DNA from: Candidatus Poribacteria bacterium
GTDB lineage: Bacteria > Poribacteria > WGA-4E > WGA-3G
Direction of reading: 5' to 3'
DNA: 64,000 bases
NCBI GenBank assembly: GCA_022825825.1
Contig: JAJDWA010000062.1
Coordinates: 124,001-188,000 of the forward strand
Part shown: positions 15,753 to 23,097 of the stretch, piece after piece
Numbering within the stretch: position 1 is the first letter of the stretch
Layout: each line of letters starts with the position of its first letter
The notes under the pieces: model-generated
Seen by the model: only the letters and a program-made list of their open reading frames with translations
What the model was told of the DNA's origin: nothing
The model's database searches: none
Position numbers and translations under genes: made by a program

Positions 15753-16877
15753 TTATGGCTTATAGATTGTTGTTTCGGGATAGTAGCGTGCCCAAGCGAA
15801 CCAGTAAATATTGACAGCGGTCAACCGTTCCAAACGCGTCCCTTTCTCTTTACCCGATATTGCCACACCTGTGACCAGATTCCAGCGTGTTCCGGTGTTG
15901 TCCTCTACAAAATGTCCATCTTGAGATCGAAAGGTTCGCACATCTTTTCCAATGTTTCGCTTAAAGACAGCCGTTGCGAATGACACTTTATCGTGAAAAA
16001 TCAGCAACGGCACTTCACCGACCATATCGTTAATCACGGCCGTTTTGGCAAAGTGTGTTAATGGATACGCGCGAAACTGTGTATTATAGGGATCGACAGA
16101 ACCGCTTCGTCCATCAGCACCGTCTTGCCCAGCAGTGCCGGGTTGTCCATCAGCTCCATCTCTACCATGGTCGCCATCTCTGCCCGGAGCACCATCTTTT
16201 GTCTGGACTTGGACTCCGATCACAAGGGACTTATTAGGCAGTCTCTTATCGGTGTATCTTGTCCCACTCACACCTGCGCGTTGGCTTTTATGATAGTCTG
16301 CGTAATTATCGCGCTTGAAGCTTTCGCGCGCACCTACAGACAACACTTTTGTCTGAGGGTAATTTGTTTGCCATGTTTTCCACGCTATCTGTGGCATGGA
16401 AGCGAGTGGTTTCAACTGCTTGCCTTTCAGTGGTCCCTGTATCGCTTCCCCAGTGATGTGAGACCAGAGAGAACGGGTTTGGTGGTCGTACATTAACAAC
16501 GCATCACGCCACAATTTACCGCTGACACCGAATGTATAGGTTTTACCGTCAAGTTCCCGGCTATACACGATAGCCGTTTTGCAGAGCGGTCACCATGTGG
16601 TAGCGATTTTGTTTCCGCCGACAACATCGTTCACAATCTCGTGTCCGTTCAGCAGATAGAGTGAGTAGGCATGACTTTCACCGTTGAAGGTTACACCAAT
16701 CACAGGGGCATCCGCGTCTAATTTTGCTTTGGCAGCAGGCACAAATTGCGGTTTTGTGATGGCGGGGATTGCATCAAAGGGTAGCAGGGTTCGGATTGGG
16801 TCTTTATCGTCCTCTGCTGCGGTTGCACTGAGGGAGGCGCCGAGTAATAGTGTGAGAATGAGGATATAGTTTTTCAT
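15753..16877 (-). CDS. DUF3179 selenoprotein with collagen-like insert (UGA read through)
   Basis: Reading through one TGA (complement at 16590-16592) gives 374 residues. There is a signal peptide (residues 1-20), then a first DUF3179 half whose usual T-W-C-P-L-C motif reads T-T-W-U96-P-L-C99. The downstream YSRELDG, FGVSG and SLWSHITGEA segments are all typical of the family. Residues 229-261 are eleven Gly-X-Y triplets inserted between VIGV and the RAYPL of a second DUF3179 half. A 7-bp stem CGGCTAT/ATAGCCG follows the TGA. AAGGA precedes the ATG. The protein is exported; its reaction is unknown, but U-x-x-C suggests redox or metal chemistry. Reading it as two broken genes is unlikely because frame and family continuity are perfect. 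Confidence 0.88.
16095..16193 (-). repeat. collagen-like Gly-X-Y coding segment
   Basis: Eleven uninterrupted triplets (GAP GRD GDH GRD GAD ...) with Asp/Arg-rich X and Y positions. It lies at a turn of the second DUF3179 half, so it may form a solvent-exposed trimerising loop. Confidence 0.85.
16558..16576 (-). promoter_or_regulatory. candidate bacterial SECIS hairpin of the DUF3179 gene
   Basis: Coding strand CGGCTAT-CGTGT-ATAGCCG: a perfect 7-bp stem and 5-nt loop with G in second position. Twenty nucleotides separate TGA from the loop. Confidence 0.7.
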
Positions 16878-16991: not shown

Positions 16992-18485
16992 ATGGAACCA
17001 CCGAAAGTATTTGCCTCATATTCTCATGATTCAGATGAACACAAACAGTGGGTGCTAAAACTTTGTAATAAACTCGTTGAAAACGGTGTAGATGTGATGT
17101 TAGATCAGTGGGATGTACGCTTGGGCACAGATCAGACATTTTTCATGGAGAAACTTAGTACTGCTGATAGAGTTCTTATGATATGCACAGACGCTTATGT
17201 AAAAAAGGCAGATAATCGTGAGGGTGGCGTGGGATATGAAGGACTTATCATCACTGAGCAGATTGCTGAGGACGTGAAAACTGATAAATTTATACCAGTA
17301 ATTCGCCAATCCTCAAATGAAAGGAAAATGCCGATTTTTTTGGGAAAGAGGCAATATATCGAATTCACTGATGACGACAGATTTGATGAAAAGTTCAATG
17401 AATTGCTTCATGACATTCATGGTGTACCAATTATTTCAAGACCTCCGTTGGGGGAAAATCCACTTACTAAACAGTCATCTGAATTTGAAACCTCAGATCA
17501 TAACCTCCCCGAAATTCCTGACAAGATTGAATCGGTTTCCGATGCTTATGAGTCTGCATTTGAGTTTGCAAGAGCCGATGATACACTTGGTTGGCAAGAA
17601 CTTGTTGGAAAAATTCGATCTAATGTGCAAAATTCATTAGAGCAATTGAAACAAGAAAATTTAAATAGTGGAAACTTGGAAAACGCCGAACAACGCATTG
17701 GGGTAGTGGATAAAGCGATTAATATTATTTCACCTCTCATTTCTGTAGCATTGGCAGGGGTCAAATCGCAGAATCAACATTTTAACAATCAAACATTTAT
17801 ATTTGAAAGTTTACGTAGTATAGATGGATGGAACCGTAACTCTGGCGATGAGTACCGTATAGGTATTCCTAATTTCCTTGGATATGTTTACCAGAGTCTG
17901 CACGGGAGTATTAGTCTTAACACAAATCAATTATCATTAGCACTTGATTTAGCACGATTCAAGGTTCCTATAGTTAGAAGTCCACAATCACAACACGATA
18001 TGGTATGGAAAATCACTATGCTTATGGGGTGGTCTCAGGCACTCAACCAGAAATGTACAGAAAATTGGCAATATTTGGCAGACGCTTATGAGAGATGGAA
18101 GTGGTTACGTGACGTATTTGAAGATAATTCAACCTATCTTACATCCCTCGTTGCTTACTACATGGCACTAAAGATACATGAATGGGCGGTAAAAATTGCT
18201 TCCAAAAGCAAGGAAAGTCTAAATGCACAATACCTCAATGTGCCATTAGATTTTTTATTTGAGGAATCCGAAATAATAGAGCGTGCAACTTCGCTTCTCC
18301 TTCGCACCCTAAAAGTATCAGAACTTTGGGAATGTGTAGGTGTAAACATAGATCAGATGAGGGATTCATGGGAAATGTCAATTGAACAGTATAGCAGTCA
18401 ATTATTACATTTCTATGATTCAAGTCATCTGGAATTTCTTAGCAAGATCCCTCGTCAATATTTAACTTTTTTTGACGTTTTGTAA
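16992..18485 (+). CDS. SEFIR (TIR-like) domain protein, probable defence effector
   Basis: Residues 5-140 of this 497-residue protein form a SEFIR/TIR-like domain: VFASYSHDSDEHKQWV, then DVMLDQWDV, DRVLMICTDAYVKKA and GVGYEG, matching bacterial SEFIR proteins. These domains mediate signalling or NAD-directed activity in immune systems. The remaining 350 residues are mostly helical with no recognised motif and could sense infection. AGGAG at 16977-16981 supports ATG 16992. It converges on the type III restriction gene with 59 nt between stops, so it belongs to the same defence island. Whether it acts alone is unknown. Confidence 0.8.
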   Translation: MEPPKVFASYSHDSDEHKQWVLKLCNKLVENGVDVMLDQWDVRLGTDQTFFMEKLSTADRVLMICTDAYVKKADNREGGVGYEGLIITEQIAEDVKTDKFIPVIRQSSNERKMPIFLGKRQYIEFTDDDRFDEKFNELLHDIHGVPIISRPPLGENPLTKQSSEFETSDHNLPEIPDKIESVSDAYESAFEFARADDTLGWQELVGKIRSNVQNSLEQLKQENLNSGNLENAEQRIGVVDKAINIISPLISVALAGVKSQNQHFNNQTFIFESLRSIDGWNRNSGDEYRIGIPNFLGYVYQSLHGSISLNTNQLSLALDLARFKVPIVRSPQSQHDMVWKITMLMGWSQALNQKCTENWQYLADAYERWKWLRDVFEDNSTYLTSLVAYYMALKIHEWAVKIASKSKESLNAQYLNVPLDFLFEESEIIERATSLLLRTLKVSELWECVGVNIDQMRDSWEMSIEQYSSQLLHFYDSSHLEFLSKIPRQYLTFFDVL

Positions 18486-18544: not shown

Positions 18545-21193
18545 TTACACCTCCTCCGCAGAGGTAACAACCCCATAATTAACATTTAGCGCATCACAGA
18601 AATGCCGCCTACCACAGTCTATCTTCCATTCTTCATGGTGGCGGAGTTTTTCCGAATCCGTTGTACTTTTCGTTTCTATGACCAGATACAGTTTTTCTTT
18701 ACCTATGGGGTCGCCGTGTACATCAAGATCATCTTTGACTATCGCCCAATCTGGATTGTAGTTTCCTATCGGAGTTGGTACGGTGAAGAAAGCAGGAAGT
18801 TTCAAGTAAAGTATAATATCCTGTCGTTTCTCTAATCCCTCAACAAATTGCTTTTCAACTTCCGAATCCCAAATCACGTGATCATAAATGGAACGCGACG
18901 CGGGTTCCATGCAGTCCTTCCAACTTTCCAGTTCACAGTCGAATTGGCTCATTTCATACACTTCACCGATTTTTTCGTACTTTATGCCATCAATTAGTTG
19001 CGTTATAATTTTCTGTCTGATTTTCTCAACCACGATCTTAGCGAATTCAGGAGGGTTGTCTAAAGCAGCTTGCTGGTTTTGGGTACGCTTAAGAATTTCC
19101 AAGAGGGTTCGCCGTGTTAGTTTCATTGCTGGTGTTGTATGTGCCAAACGATGCTCAATTGACTTCAAGACGTTTGCCTTACCCGATAAACTGTATGTCA
19201 AGCTTCCATCCGCAATGAGCTCAACTTCAAAAGCGTTATCTTTATTAACTTTCAATTCCCCCCTCCTTATTGATATTTGCGGAAGTTCAATGTCGGTGTC
19301 ATCTAATATTTTTACAACATCTTCAATCAGTTTTTCTGTGTCAATTTGCACCTTGTATCGCGTTTTGTGTTTTATACGATCCCAGAGTGCCTCAAATTCC
19401 GGTTTAAGTGTCATTGCTTTTTTTAGTTTTATTGGACCACGTTCTCTTGCATTTTTCGGTTTGGGCATGCTATCACCAGTTCCAAACTCATCCTGAACTT
19501 CGGTTTGAAGTTCTCGAACATAATTGGTATAACTTTCGTTGGCAACGACAGTAAGCACGTTAAGTTTTTCGTCATGCACACGTTTTCCCTCTTGATTGAC
19601 AGCAAGGCGTACACCACGACCAATTTCCTGTCGTTTTTTCATATCAGAAACTGTCTGGTTCAACGTGCAAATCTGGAAGACGTTCGGACTATCCCACCCT
19701 TCACGGAGTGCAGAATGTGAAAAGATAAAACAGGTCGGTTCCTCAAAAGACAAAAGACGTTCCTTATCTTTCATAATCAATTGGTAAACCTCGCGATCCT
19801 TTTCTGCATCGCCTTTGGTATCTTCGTAAACAAGTTCTTCTTTTTCCGTTTGGCTTTTGGCTTTTGCGAAATAGGCGGCTTGTACATCTTCAGGTTGTTT
19901 TTCTCGCCATTCTGAGTACCTCTCTTCTTGTTTTAACTCATTAAAACATTCGTCAAAGAGTTTGCGAATGATTGGGTCTTTTCCTGCATAGTTGTCAACT
20001 CTATCAATAAAAAAGAGCGAGAGCACCTTAAGACCGGTATCTTTAAGCTTATTCTGTTTCCGAAAGTGTTCCTCAATTGTATAACGAATTTGTGCCTTAA
20101 AAATTGCTGTTTTATCAGCACCATGCGTGTCGCCAGTTTTTAAAACCTCGTTATTATCAAAATGCACCTCACCCCATCTAACGTTAATTTCTCTAATCCG
20201 ATAGCCTTGATACTGAGGCAGATTCGTCTTTGTCTCTAAATCATCGCCTTTTTTAAACGTAAGTGTCGTCTGCTTTGCCGTGTTATTTTTCATGAGTTTA
20301 TGCACTACAAGTTTTGCTGTCACTCGACTTTTTTGGCTTTGAACACTCTTAACATGAACAAAAGCAAGATTTGTATTTGCGCTCTCTTCAACACCTGCAA
20401 CCTCTATCCTTTTTACTAAACCCTCACGATAAGCGTCATAGGGCGTTAAGCAGTAGACTCGATTGTGAGGGGTCTTATGTGTCGCACTATATCTCAATGC
20501 AAACAGTGGGGAGAGACTGGAGAGAGCTTCCACACTGAGGTCACTTTCCATCCGCTGTGGTTCATCTAATATCAGAATCGGACGAGTCGCCCGGATAAAA
20601 TTCATCGGAATATCCCCTTGCAATCGATCAGTGCTTTTGTGAATCACGTTTTTTGAAGGTTGATTGAATGAGGCCATTGTTATAACCATAATTTCAACAC
20701 TATCGGATAACGCAAACTGGCGGACTTGTGACAACTTCTCGGAATCGTAAACATAATAACGATATGGGATGTTGTCATATAACTCTTTAAAATGTGATTC
20801 TGTCATTTCAAGCGTTTTTAGCACACCCTCTCTAATCGCAACGGAAGGCACTACGACAATAAACTTACGCATTCCGTAGTTTTGAAAAAGTTCCAGCACA
20901 GTACGCAAGTAGATATAGGTTTTGCCTGTGCCTGTTTCCATCTCAACAGAAAAGTTCGGAAATCCGTTTGTGGAAAACTCGCCCACCTCTATTCCGTTTG
21001 CCTCCTGAATTTCTTTTAGACGATCACTTATTTGTTCAGGATCTAAGTCAAGGCGGTTGGATATAGCAGAAAAGTTTGATTCCCCACTAAATTGTAGGGT
21101 TGTCCGGACAGGGATTTGTCCTTCAAACAATTGGACAACGGCATCAATAGCATCCCGTTGGTAGTCTTGGTTAGCGTCAAATTCAAATTTCAT
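18545..21193 (-). CDS. res: type III restriction enzyme Res subunit
   Basis: The 882-residue protein has a superfamily 2 helicase core: Walker A ETGTGKT near residue 90, DEPQ (DEAD-like motif II) near 215 and an Arg-finger segment QEIGRGVRLAVN in the second half. A C-terminal PD-(D/E)xK nuclease follows, seen as YNPDWAIV and LVIETKS near residues 820-855. This is the standard type III Res layout: ATP-driven translocation and cleavage near the Mod recognition site. ATG 21193 begins the homology; the upstream TTG at 21220 adds nine residues without a ribosome site. It lies 48 nt downstream of mod. Confidence 0.88.
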   Translation of the reverse strand: MKFEFDANQDYQRDAIDAVVQLFEGQIPVRTTLQFSGESNFSAISNRLDLDPEQISDRLKEIQEANGIEVGEFSTNGFPNFSVEMETGTGKTYIYLRTVLELFQNYGMRKFIVVVPSVAIREGVLKTLEMTESHFKELYDNIPYRYYVYDSEKLSQVRQFALSDSVEIMVITMASFNQPSKNVIHKSTDRLQGDIPMNFIRATRPILILDEPQRMESDLSVEALSSLSPLFALRYSATHKTPHNRVYCLTPYDAYREGLVKRIEVAGVEESANTNLAFVHVKSVQSQKSRVTAKLVVHKLMKNNTAKQTTLTFKKGDDLETKTNLPQYQGYRIREINVRWGEVHFDNNEVLKTGDTHGADKTAIFKAQIRYTIEEHFRKQNKLKDTGLKVLSLFFIDRVDNYAGKDPIIRKLFDECFNELKQEERYSEWREKQPEDVQAAYFAKAKSQTEKEELVYEDTKGDAEKDREVYQLIMKDKERLLSFEEPTCFIFSHSALREGWDSPNVFQICTLNQTVSDMKKRQEIGRGVRLAVNQEGKRVHDEKLNVLTVVANESYTNYVRELQTEVQDEFGTGDSMPKPKNARERGPIKLKKAMTLKPEFEALWDRIKHKTRYKVQIDTEKLIEDVVKILDDTDIELPQISIRRGELKVNKDNAFEVELIADGSLTYSLSGKANVLKSIEHRLAHTTPAMKLTRRTLLEILKRTQNQQAALDNPPEFAKIVVEKIRQKIITQLIDGIKYEKIGEVYEMSQFDCELESWKDCMEPASRSIYDHVIWDSEVEKQFVEGLEKRQDIILYLKLPAFFTVPTPIGNYNPDWAIVKDDLDVHGDPIGKEKLYLVIETKSTTDSEKLRHHEEWKIDCGRRHFCDALNVNYGVVTSAEEV

Positions 21194-21241: not shown

Positions 21242-23097
21242 TCAGATTGTTTTGAGACGGCATTGCAAAGCAAGGTTTGCAGCGAGCGTATCATCTAACG
21301 CAATATCACGGCAGATAAACACAGAATCTTTTGATAAGTCCAAACTTTCTATATCTGTTTCTGTTAGTTGTTCATCTAAACAGATATGGAGTGATTGTGT
21401 CCCATTAGGTGTAGTAATGCAAAAAACGGTGTTTGTTGTGAGTTCTTTAACGGGTTGAATTGCACTGTCCAGCGGGTATCCTTCCTTGAGAATAATTTCA
21501 TAGAGAACGTCCTCTGCAAGCCATCCTTCTCGGAGTGGGTCAAGGGTCCCTTCTAACTCACTGAAAAGAGTCGGTTTTTCATCGGTTTCGGAATTGCTTT
21601 CAGTCTCATAATTTGATGGTGAGAGTTTAAAAACGCGAAATCCGGACGATTCGGAGAAATTCTGACAGACGCGCCGAATTCGTTCTTTGCCAATCTCATC
21701 GATAGTTTCAAAACCTGCTTTACGTCCTGCAGATTTTTCAGGTGTGGGTTCGGGGAGTTGAACCATGATGTATTGCCTATTACCGTTATCCTCTTGATTA
21801 AGTTCCAAAACAGCTTGTGCTGCTGTACAAGAACCTGCAAAAAAGTCTAAAACAATAGAATCAGAATTCGTGCTGAATTGGAGTAGATGTTTGATTAATC
21901 CAACAGGTTTAGGGTTACTGAAAATACCATCAGAATCGAAAATCTCTCTAAGTTGCCTTCTACCTTTGGGATTCTTTTCTACTTTAGTTAACAAACTTCG
22001 AGGTACCCTTTTAGATTCGTTCAAGTAAATTTTCTTTTCTACCTGCCATTCCCCATTCTGTTTTTTCCTGAAAACAATTCTGTCTTCGTCTTTTAATTTT
22101 AAGAAACCGGTTTCTTTTTGACCCCATTCCTTGTAAACCATTGTACCATCAGGACACTCAATTTCATATCGTAATCCCTCTGCAGGATTGTCTGGTCGCA
22201 TGGGTTCAAAAACACTAGTTTTATAAGGGCCACGCGTTTCATAGTAATCGTCTTTTTGTTTAAATGCAGTTTTTTCTGTTTCAGTAAGTGGGCGTCTTAG
22301 CCTATCAATCGCATGAAGGTTTTTCGCATAAGAAAGAATATATTCATGGTCAGTTGCAAAATATTTAGAATCATTACCACCACCCCCGTGTCGTTGCCAT
22401 ACTACCTGCTGAAGACAATTTTCTTCACCAAAAATCTCGTTCAGCATAAGCCGAAGGTTGTATACCTCCCGATCGTCAATGCTTACAAAGATAATGCCAT
22501 CATCGGTAAGCAGTTGACGTGCTAAAAAGAGGCGTGGATACATCATAGATAGCCAAGCGGAATGATAGCGACCACTCGTTTCTGGATTGGTAGTTTGCAA
22601 ATTGCCTTCTGAATCGACTTGTCCAGTCAATTGAAGGTAGGTGTCTAACGGCTTTTTATAGTTGTCGGGATAAATAAAGTCCCCGCCAGTATTGTAGGGT
22701 GGATCAATGTAGATAGCTTTGATACGGCCGAAATAGGGTTTATAGAGGAGCTTGAGTACCTCAAGATTGTCGCCTTCAATAAAGAGGTTTTGGGATGTCT
22801 CAAAATTTAGGGAGTCGTCATGGTCAGGTTTTAACGTCGCCTCGGTGGGGATGTTGAGTAGACGGATAGCGTTACGTTTGCCTGCCCACGTGAAGCGGTA
22901 AGTTTCGCTTTTTTCTATTTCGTTAACAGATTCTGTTAATACCCCCCCCCAATTTCACGAAGTAGTAAATTATTAAGTTTTTCAGGGTCAATCTCGCCTT
23001 CGGTAAGACATTCGGGGAAGAGCTGCTTAAGTTGTTTGAGTCTTTCCTCGTTGGGAGTCGTGGTGGTTTTTTGGACTTTATCAATAGTTTTTGTCAT
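21242..23097 (-). CDS. mod: type III DNA methyltransferase Mod, frameshifted in a G9 tract (phase-OFF)
   Basis: From ATG 23097 the frame runs 49 codons, enters nine G (22942-22950) and meets TAA at 22936-22938, leaving 53 residues. With one more G (or two fewer) the frame joins an intact 3' part, giving about 618 residues. Beta-class motifs are present: IEGDNLEVLK, catalytic DPPYN at about 132-136 and SAM-binding DFFAGSCTAAQAV near 380, with the target-recognition region between. A mononucleotide run near the 5' end of a type III mod gene is a classic phase-variation switch. A sequencing error in the run is the alternative. Without Mod, Res should also be inactive. Confidence 0.85.
22942..22950 (-). 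repeat. poly-G tract (nine G on the coding strand) within mod
   Basis: A run of nine identical bases about 150 nt into the mod gene; slippage by +1 or -2 would restore the reading frame. Confidence 0.85.

Follow-up and report, generated by a model that had tools for sequence, protein, structure and literature searches.

The window, by which we mean the whole 64-kb stretch of DNA that was analysed, carries a type III methyltransferase gene (mod) on its minus strand that is divided into two open frames by a run of nine G. The plus strand at 22942-22950 reads nine C, which gives nine G on the coding strand; this run is the putative switch, and no other run of G or C in the window reaches seven. 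The first part of mod, 49 codons (22951-23097, minus strand), begins with an ATG at 23097 and matches the start of the continuous genes L006, L006b and L010; the tract follows 147 nt after the start. Read on from the ATG, the frame continues as GGG GGG GGG TAT TAA and yields a product of 53 residues. The TAA stop of this present (OFF) frame (22936-22938, minus strand) lies one codon past the tract. The rest of mod (21242-22942, minus strand) is in a different frame; starting from the tract's last G, this frame runs uninterrupted through 566 codons and a stop down to 21242. The third frame at the tract meets a stop nine codons on. A sequence-only reading had placed the nine-G run at these coordinates, about 150 nt into mod, with Mod sequence on both flanks in frames differing by one base; the sequence and the translation of all three frames agree with it in coordinates, distance and frame arithmetic.

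The downstream part of mod matches N6_N4_Mtase in Pfam (PF01555, 5.8e-34) and the PADLOC type III methyltransferase profile MTase_III (2.9e-168) over profile positions 52-609 of 621. Since the profile match begins at position 52, about 51 residues are expected before it, and the 49-codon start roughly supplies them. TypeIII_RM_meth (PF12564) was absent among the Pfam matches of both the downstream part and the N-terminal piece. The DPPY catalytic motif (22694-22705, minus strand) reads DPPYNTGGDF. The probable AdoMet-binding motif (21827-21841, minus strand), assigned from the sequence and the rows of relatives, reads FAGSC for the textbook FxGxG. FAGSC was considered as a sign of decay in the window copy and this was ruled out: F[AS]G[ST]C was matched in 10 of 12 Poribacterial mod rows (the pattern was unmatched in L007 and L009), so FAGSC is no private defect. 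A working Mod made from an internal start, without the first 49 codons, was likewise ruled out. In the downstream frame no ordinary start codon occurs before codon 105, and DPPY comes earlier, at codon 80; an internal start therefore cannot rescue the enzyme.

Beginning 48 nt past the mod stop is res (18545-21193, minus strand), an intact gene of 882 codons for a type III restriction subunit, with matches to RE_endonuc, ResIII and PADLOC REase_III (3.5e-245). The motifs GTGKT and DEPQ and a C-terminal nuclease domain are present in Res. Type III systems methylate one strand of a short site and cut by means of Mod and Res together with ATP, and several features of this class were found at the locus, namely a Mod-family match, DPPY and an adjacent Res with ATPase motifs and a nuclease domain. 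The nearest named relatives of the window's mod belong to Candidatus Poribacteria. The earlier description is confirmed: in an uncultured lineage, a G tract divides a type III mod whose mod-res operon is otherwise intact. Convergent with res and outside the switch is a bSEFIR defence gene (16992-18485, plus strand; PADLOC bSEFIR, 9.7e-76), and a bSEFIR-like gene also adjoins res in L004, L010 and L012. Neighbours of the operon recur by mod in L004, L006, L008, L010, L012, L014 and L090, the set varying from locus to locus; those tested were not found beside mod in L005, L007, L009, L011 and L087 (L215). The protein encoded at 15753-16568 (minus strand) has, from its translation, a collagen-like GXX stretch.

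A G9 tract by itself is not rare for a window of such composition. At least as many overlapping G8 matches were given by 13 of 100 shuffles of the window. What exceeds chance is the tract's place. With each gene counted once, 14 Poribacterial sequences were compared, namely the window and 13 relatives of about 62% identity or higher. In 11 of them an uninterrupted run of 7-12 G occupies the identical position in mod, whereas the whole genome, G000 (5.1 Mb), has four runs of at least nine. The run is G9 in the window, L005, L006b, L007, L008, L009, L014 and L087, G12 in L004, G10 in L011 and G7 in L012, these being lengths as assembled, and assemblies, especially those from long reads, can miscount homopolymers. 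Ten of these 11 tract mods are OFF and one (L006b, G9) is ON, lengths and states here being compared between species, not strains. L006 and L010 have a tract-less, continuous mod. In L090 the tract is interrupted and out of frame, about 240 residues are missing and no res was found, and L012 has an additional frame break in an assembly with coverage of about 4.5. At L006:3120-6686 a tandem pair of mod genes precedes one res, the first with an in-frame G9 and the second tract-less and continuous. Excluded from the 14 were the remnant L110, which covers residues 339-443 and contains a stop, a piece at a contig edge (G021:C4, residues 438-566), and relatives of lower identity, for the most part about 30-48% and in one case 56%.

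Nine of the 23 distant Poribacterial loci (L091-L113, including L110) could be judged at the site and one of the nine has a tract. This is L105, which comes from the same genus and is a less closely related mod; it has G10 at the matching point and is OFF. No G run above six was present at the site in the 67 judgeable relatives among 70 from non-Poribacterial genome contigs, the longest being a run of six in one of them, and no run above G5 was present there in any of six viral-contig relatives of Mod. A search for at least seven G ahead of the conserved F-T/N-W motif, a pattern blind to variants such as L105, matched in 8 of 84 Poribacterial genomes; with one spurious match removed, it yielded 10 tract genes in 7 genomes. 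The pattern match in G042 and three in viral contigs showed no mod similarity and were dropped. The tract is present in three genera, and in the tree the Poribacterial mods group in a single, fully supported clade apart from four outgroup rows. This distribution suggests that the tract is old in the Poribacterial clade and was lost in some members.

If the assembly or consensus were in error, the true tract length would be in frame and mod constantly ON. Homopolymers are error-prone, and most mod tracts, like most tracts in the related genome G019, were called at exactly nine. Such an error would nevertheless leave unexplained that the tract is kept in 11 of 14 sequences from several assemblies, at lengths of 7, 9, 10 and 12, and that tracts are concentrated on methyltransferases (see below); even with a wrong length here, the tract would remain a likely switch. 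We consider this explanation very unlikely.

The dN/dS of the downstream part of mod was 0.10 for the window against L014 and 0.14 against L004, both OFF like the window. The remaining computable comparisons with the window gave 0.11, 0.13, 0.13 and 0.30, all of these values being rough, with synonymous change near saturation and 5 of 11 comparisons saturated and without a value. The values for the closest relatives (about 0.10-0.14) indicate that the downstream mod is under purifying selection though OFF and, because of this selection, that the gene is not decayed. This bears on whether the frameshift is permanent and mod a decaying pseudogene. The window copy is out of frame, as such an account would have it, and loss does occur, as in L090 (interrupted tract, the missing residues, no res) and in L012 with its second frame break. 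It is, however, difficult to reconcile with low dN/dS among OFF copies, with a tract that persists across three genera, and with 566 codons of mod and 882 codons of res in the window that contain no further break, and we regard a fixed pseudogene as very unlikely. A fixed frameshift with further decay, which the sequence-only reading had named as evidence that would count against it, was looked for in the window and was not seen. Its central proposal, a phase-variable mod that is now OFF, is well supported: the relatives keep the tract in place, its length differs among them and both frames occur.

A second methyltransferase family shows a similar arrangement. The homologues of L152 are N6_N4_Mtase genes with an Mrr-like nuclease domain, and 11 of them, in G019 and G021, have a tract at one place. 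Two are in frame (L152, G10; L266, G7), while seven with G9 and two with G11 are out of frame, one of the G11 copies (L213) adjoining masked bases. The 26 remaining rows, which have no run above five, are all in frame. The bases adjoining the tract on either side agree fully between L152 (G10, ON) and L154 (G9, OFF), which stand one G apart, and of the sequence evidence this pair speaks most strongly for tract length, and not decay, setting the state.

Tracts are numerous in two of the genomes. G or C runs of at least nine, exactly eight and exactly seven numbered 58, 28 and 62 in G019, 31, 19 and 28 in G021, and 4, 11 and 31 in G000; N6_N4_Mtase matches in the whole genomes numbered 72, 52 and 48, respectively. 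Of the 55 tracts on the G019 main contig, 18 lay within 600 nt of 18 among 60 listed methyltransferase domains (72 in total), compared to 1.3 expected from random placement and at most 7 in 2000 sets. Similarly, 10 of 31 tracts in G021 lay near 9 among 46 listed domains (52 in total), with 0.65 expected. The window's mod was the only such case found in G000. When the longest ATG-led frame before the tract was compared with the longest frame after it, one of the 18 G019 methyltransferase tracts was in frame and 17 were out of frame; three mods and six second-family genes already counted above are among these 18. Split frames were also seen in two Eco57I-type methyltransferases, a weaker Eco57I match and a DUF1156 gene, and more tracts lie in or near a sulfatase, a DNA ligase and surface-type proteins. 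At L196:1456-4158, two adjoining methyltransferase frames each have a C9 after a similar 38-codon start, and both are out of frame.

The other G000 runs of at least nine (C7, C24, C64) were considered as gene switches and rejected, as no convincing gene was found there and they belong to recurring elements. An interspersed C8-C10 element has 17 members, of which L002:4112-4121, L218, L222, L224 and L227 are in G000, 7 in G019 and 5 in G021. L001:4047-4056 and L003:4062-4072, two regions of G000 that resemble each other, have runs of C10 and C11, the run in L001 lying shortly before a large open frame. Rfam gave no match in six loci with intergenic poly-C elements, including three loci of the 17-member element, L001 and L003.

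The tract-bearing copies are skewed towards OFF, in 10 of 11 mods (P = 0.075) and 19 of 22 genes of both families (P = 0.035), with related copies treated as independent. Under-called homopolymers in long-read assemblies and the nine-G threshold may inflate this skew. Programmed slippage of RNA polymerase or of the ribosome at the G tract could produce some full-length Mod from an out-of-frame gene, and the OFF counts among the close mods (10 of 11) and the G019 tract methyltransferases (17 of 18) are above what one-third ON would predict. Slippage would not account for the tract copies that are in frame (L006b, L152, L266) or for the continuous, tract-less L006 and L010; different copies would require different corrections, and modH of Helicobacter pylori is also mostly OFF (14 of 57 strains ON; PMC3230613). 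The first ten tract copies were all OFF, and this had been considered as a sign of a programmed frameshift; it was discarded given the in-frame G9 of L006b and the mostly OFF state of H. pylori modH. Programmed slippage is also very unlikely, and leaky slippage may occur on top of phase variation.

Very probably, then, mod and res form a type III restriction-modification operon in which mod is switched by slipped-strand mispairing at the G tract. The tract, 147 nt into mod, would change length by such mispairing and thereby shift the frame. One length class (modulo 3) would give full-length Mod of about 618 residues, and in the other two translation would end within nine codons of the tract start; the window as assembled would represent the OFF state. 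Type III Res needs Mod for DNA recognition, so in the OFF state, with no Mod, Res would be idle, and modification and restriction would switch together. Within one population the tract would presumably vary in length, with methylation and restriction in ON cells, and other genes may be affected. Counted in support of the switch were the split frame with intact halves, the conserved tract site with its differing lengths, the ON and OFF relatives, purifying selection on downstream mod, the intact res, the second family, the concentration of tracts on methyltransferases and the precedent of H. pylori modH. Counted against it were the single ON copy among the 11 close mods, the fallibility of assembled homopolymer lengths, the ease with which a tract arises in such a composition, and the decay seen in L090 and L012.

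In a phasevarion, the switching of a methyltransferase alters the expression of a set of genes. The modA, modB and modD genes of Haemophilus and Neisseria are type III mods switched by a simple in-frame repeat of several bases, and the Poribacterial mod, with its G run, is unlike these. The closer parallel is modH of H. pylori, a type III mod with a poly-G tract that controls the ModH phasevarion (PMC3230613). Its tract lengths there range from 8 to 15 (Table 1), the frame class decides between ON and OFF, and the number of ON strains given above was counted from that table (PMC3230613). Like modH, the Poribacterial operon has mod followed by res, a G tract within the mod frame and mostly OFF copies (PMC3230613). 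It differs in phylum, in its lengths of 7-12 and in that species rather than strains are compared. The comparison with modH concerns gene order, the tract and its length, and the frame state. The mechanism proposed here is that of H. pylori modH and is already known.

Surface-structure genes dominate the Campylobacter phasome, and the 18 of 55 main-contig tracts at beta-class methyltransferases in G019 are unlike that emphasis. The likeness lies in the many loci per genome with repeats able to shift frame, which in Campylobacter are poly-G genes (PMC6321876).

Relatives of res adjoin mod in L004, L006, L008, L010, L012 and L014. No such relative turned up in L005, L007 and L011, where about 5 kb to each side was covered, or in about 3.5 kb downstream of L087; L009 ends at a contig edge. 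The mods of L005, L007, L011 and L087 may act without restriction, although they may also have a res at another place or of a different type. A tentative further reading, to which we give somewhat less than even credence, is that some Poribacteria hold a large, mostly silent bank of methyltransferases, each with its own G-tract switch, that would generate combinatorial methylation within a population, and that L005, L007, L011 and L087 would be methylation-only switches and dedicated phasevarion regulators. The basis for this is the 18 tract-bearing beta-class genes in G019, which come in addition to those of Eco57I type.

No report of a G-tract mod switch in Poribacteria was found among the matches listed in a literature search that took in a minority of subscription journals. 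As far as that search goes, the novelty lies in this Poribacterial member, in its phylum and in how many such tracts related genomes carry. Type III methyltransferases switched by repeats have been described chiefly in host-adapted pathogens. The conserved tract in several Poribacteria and the concentration of tracts on methyltransferases in two genomes point to the same device in an uncultured phylum. If the switching is true, Poribacterial populations would be mixtures of restriction and methylation states, and this would bear on phage resistance and gene flow in the sponge hosts with which Poribacteria are associated.
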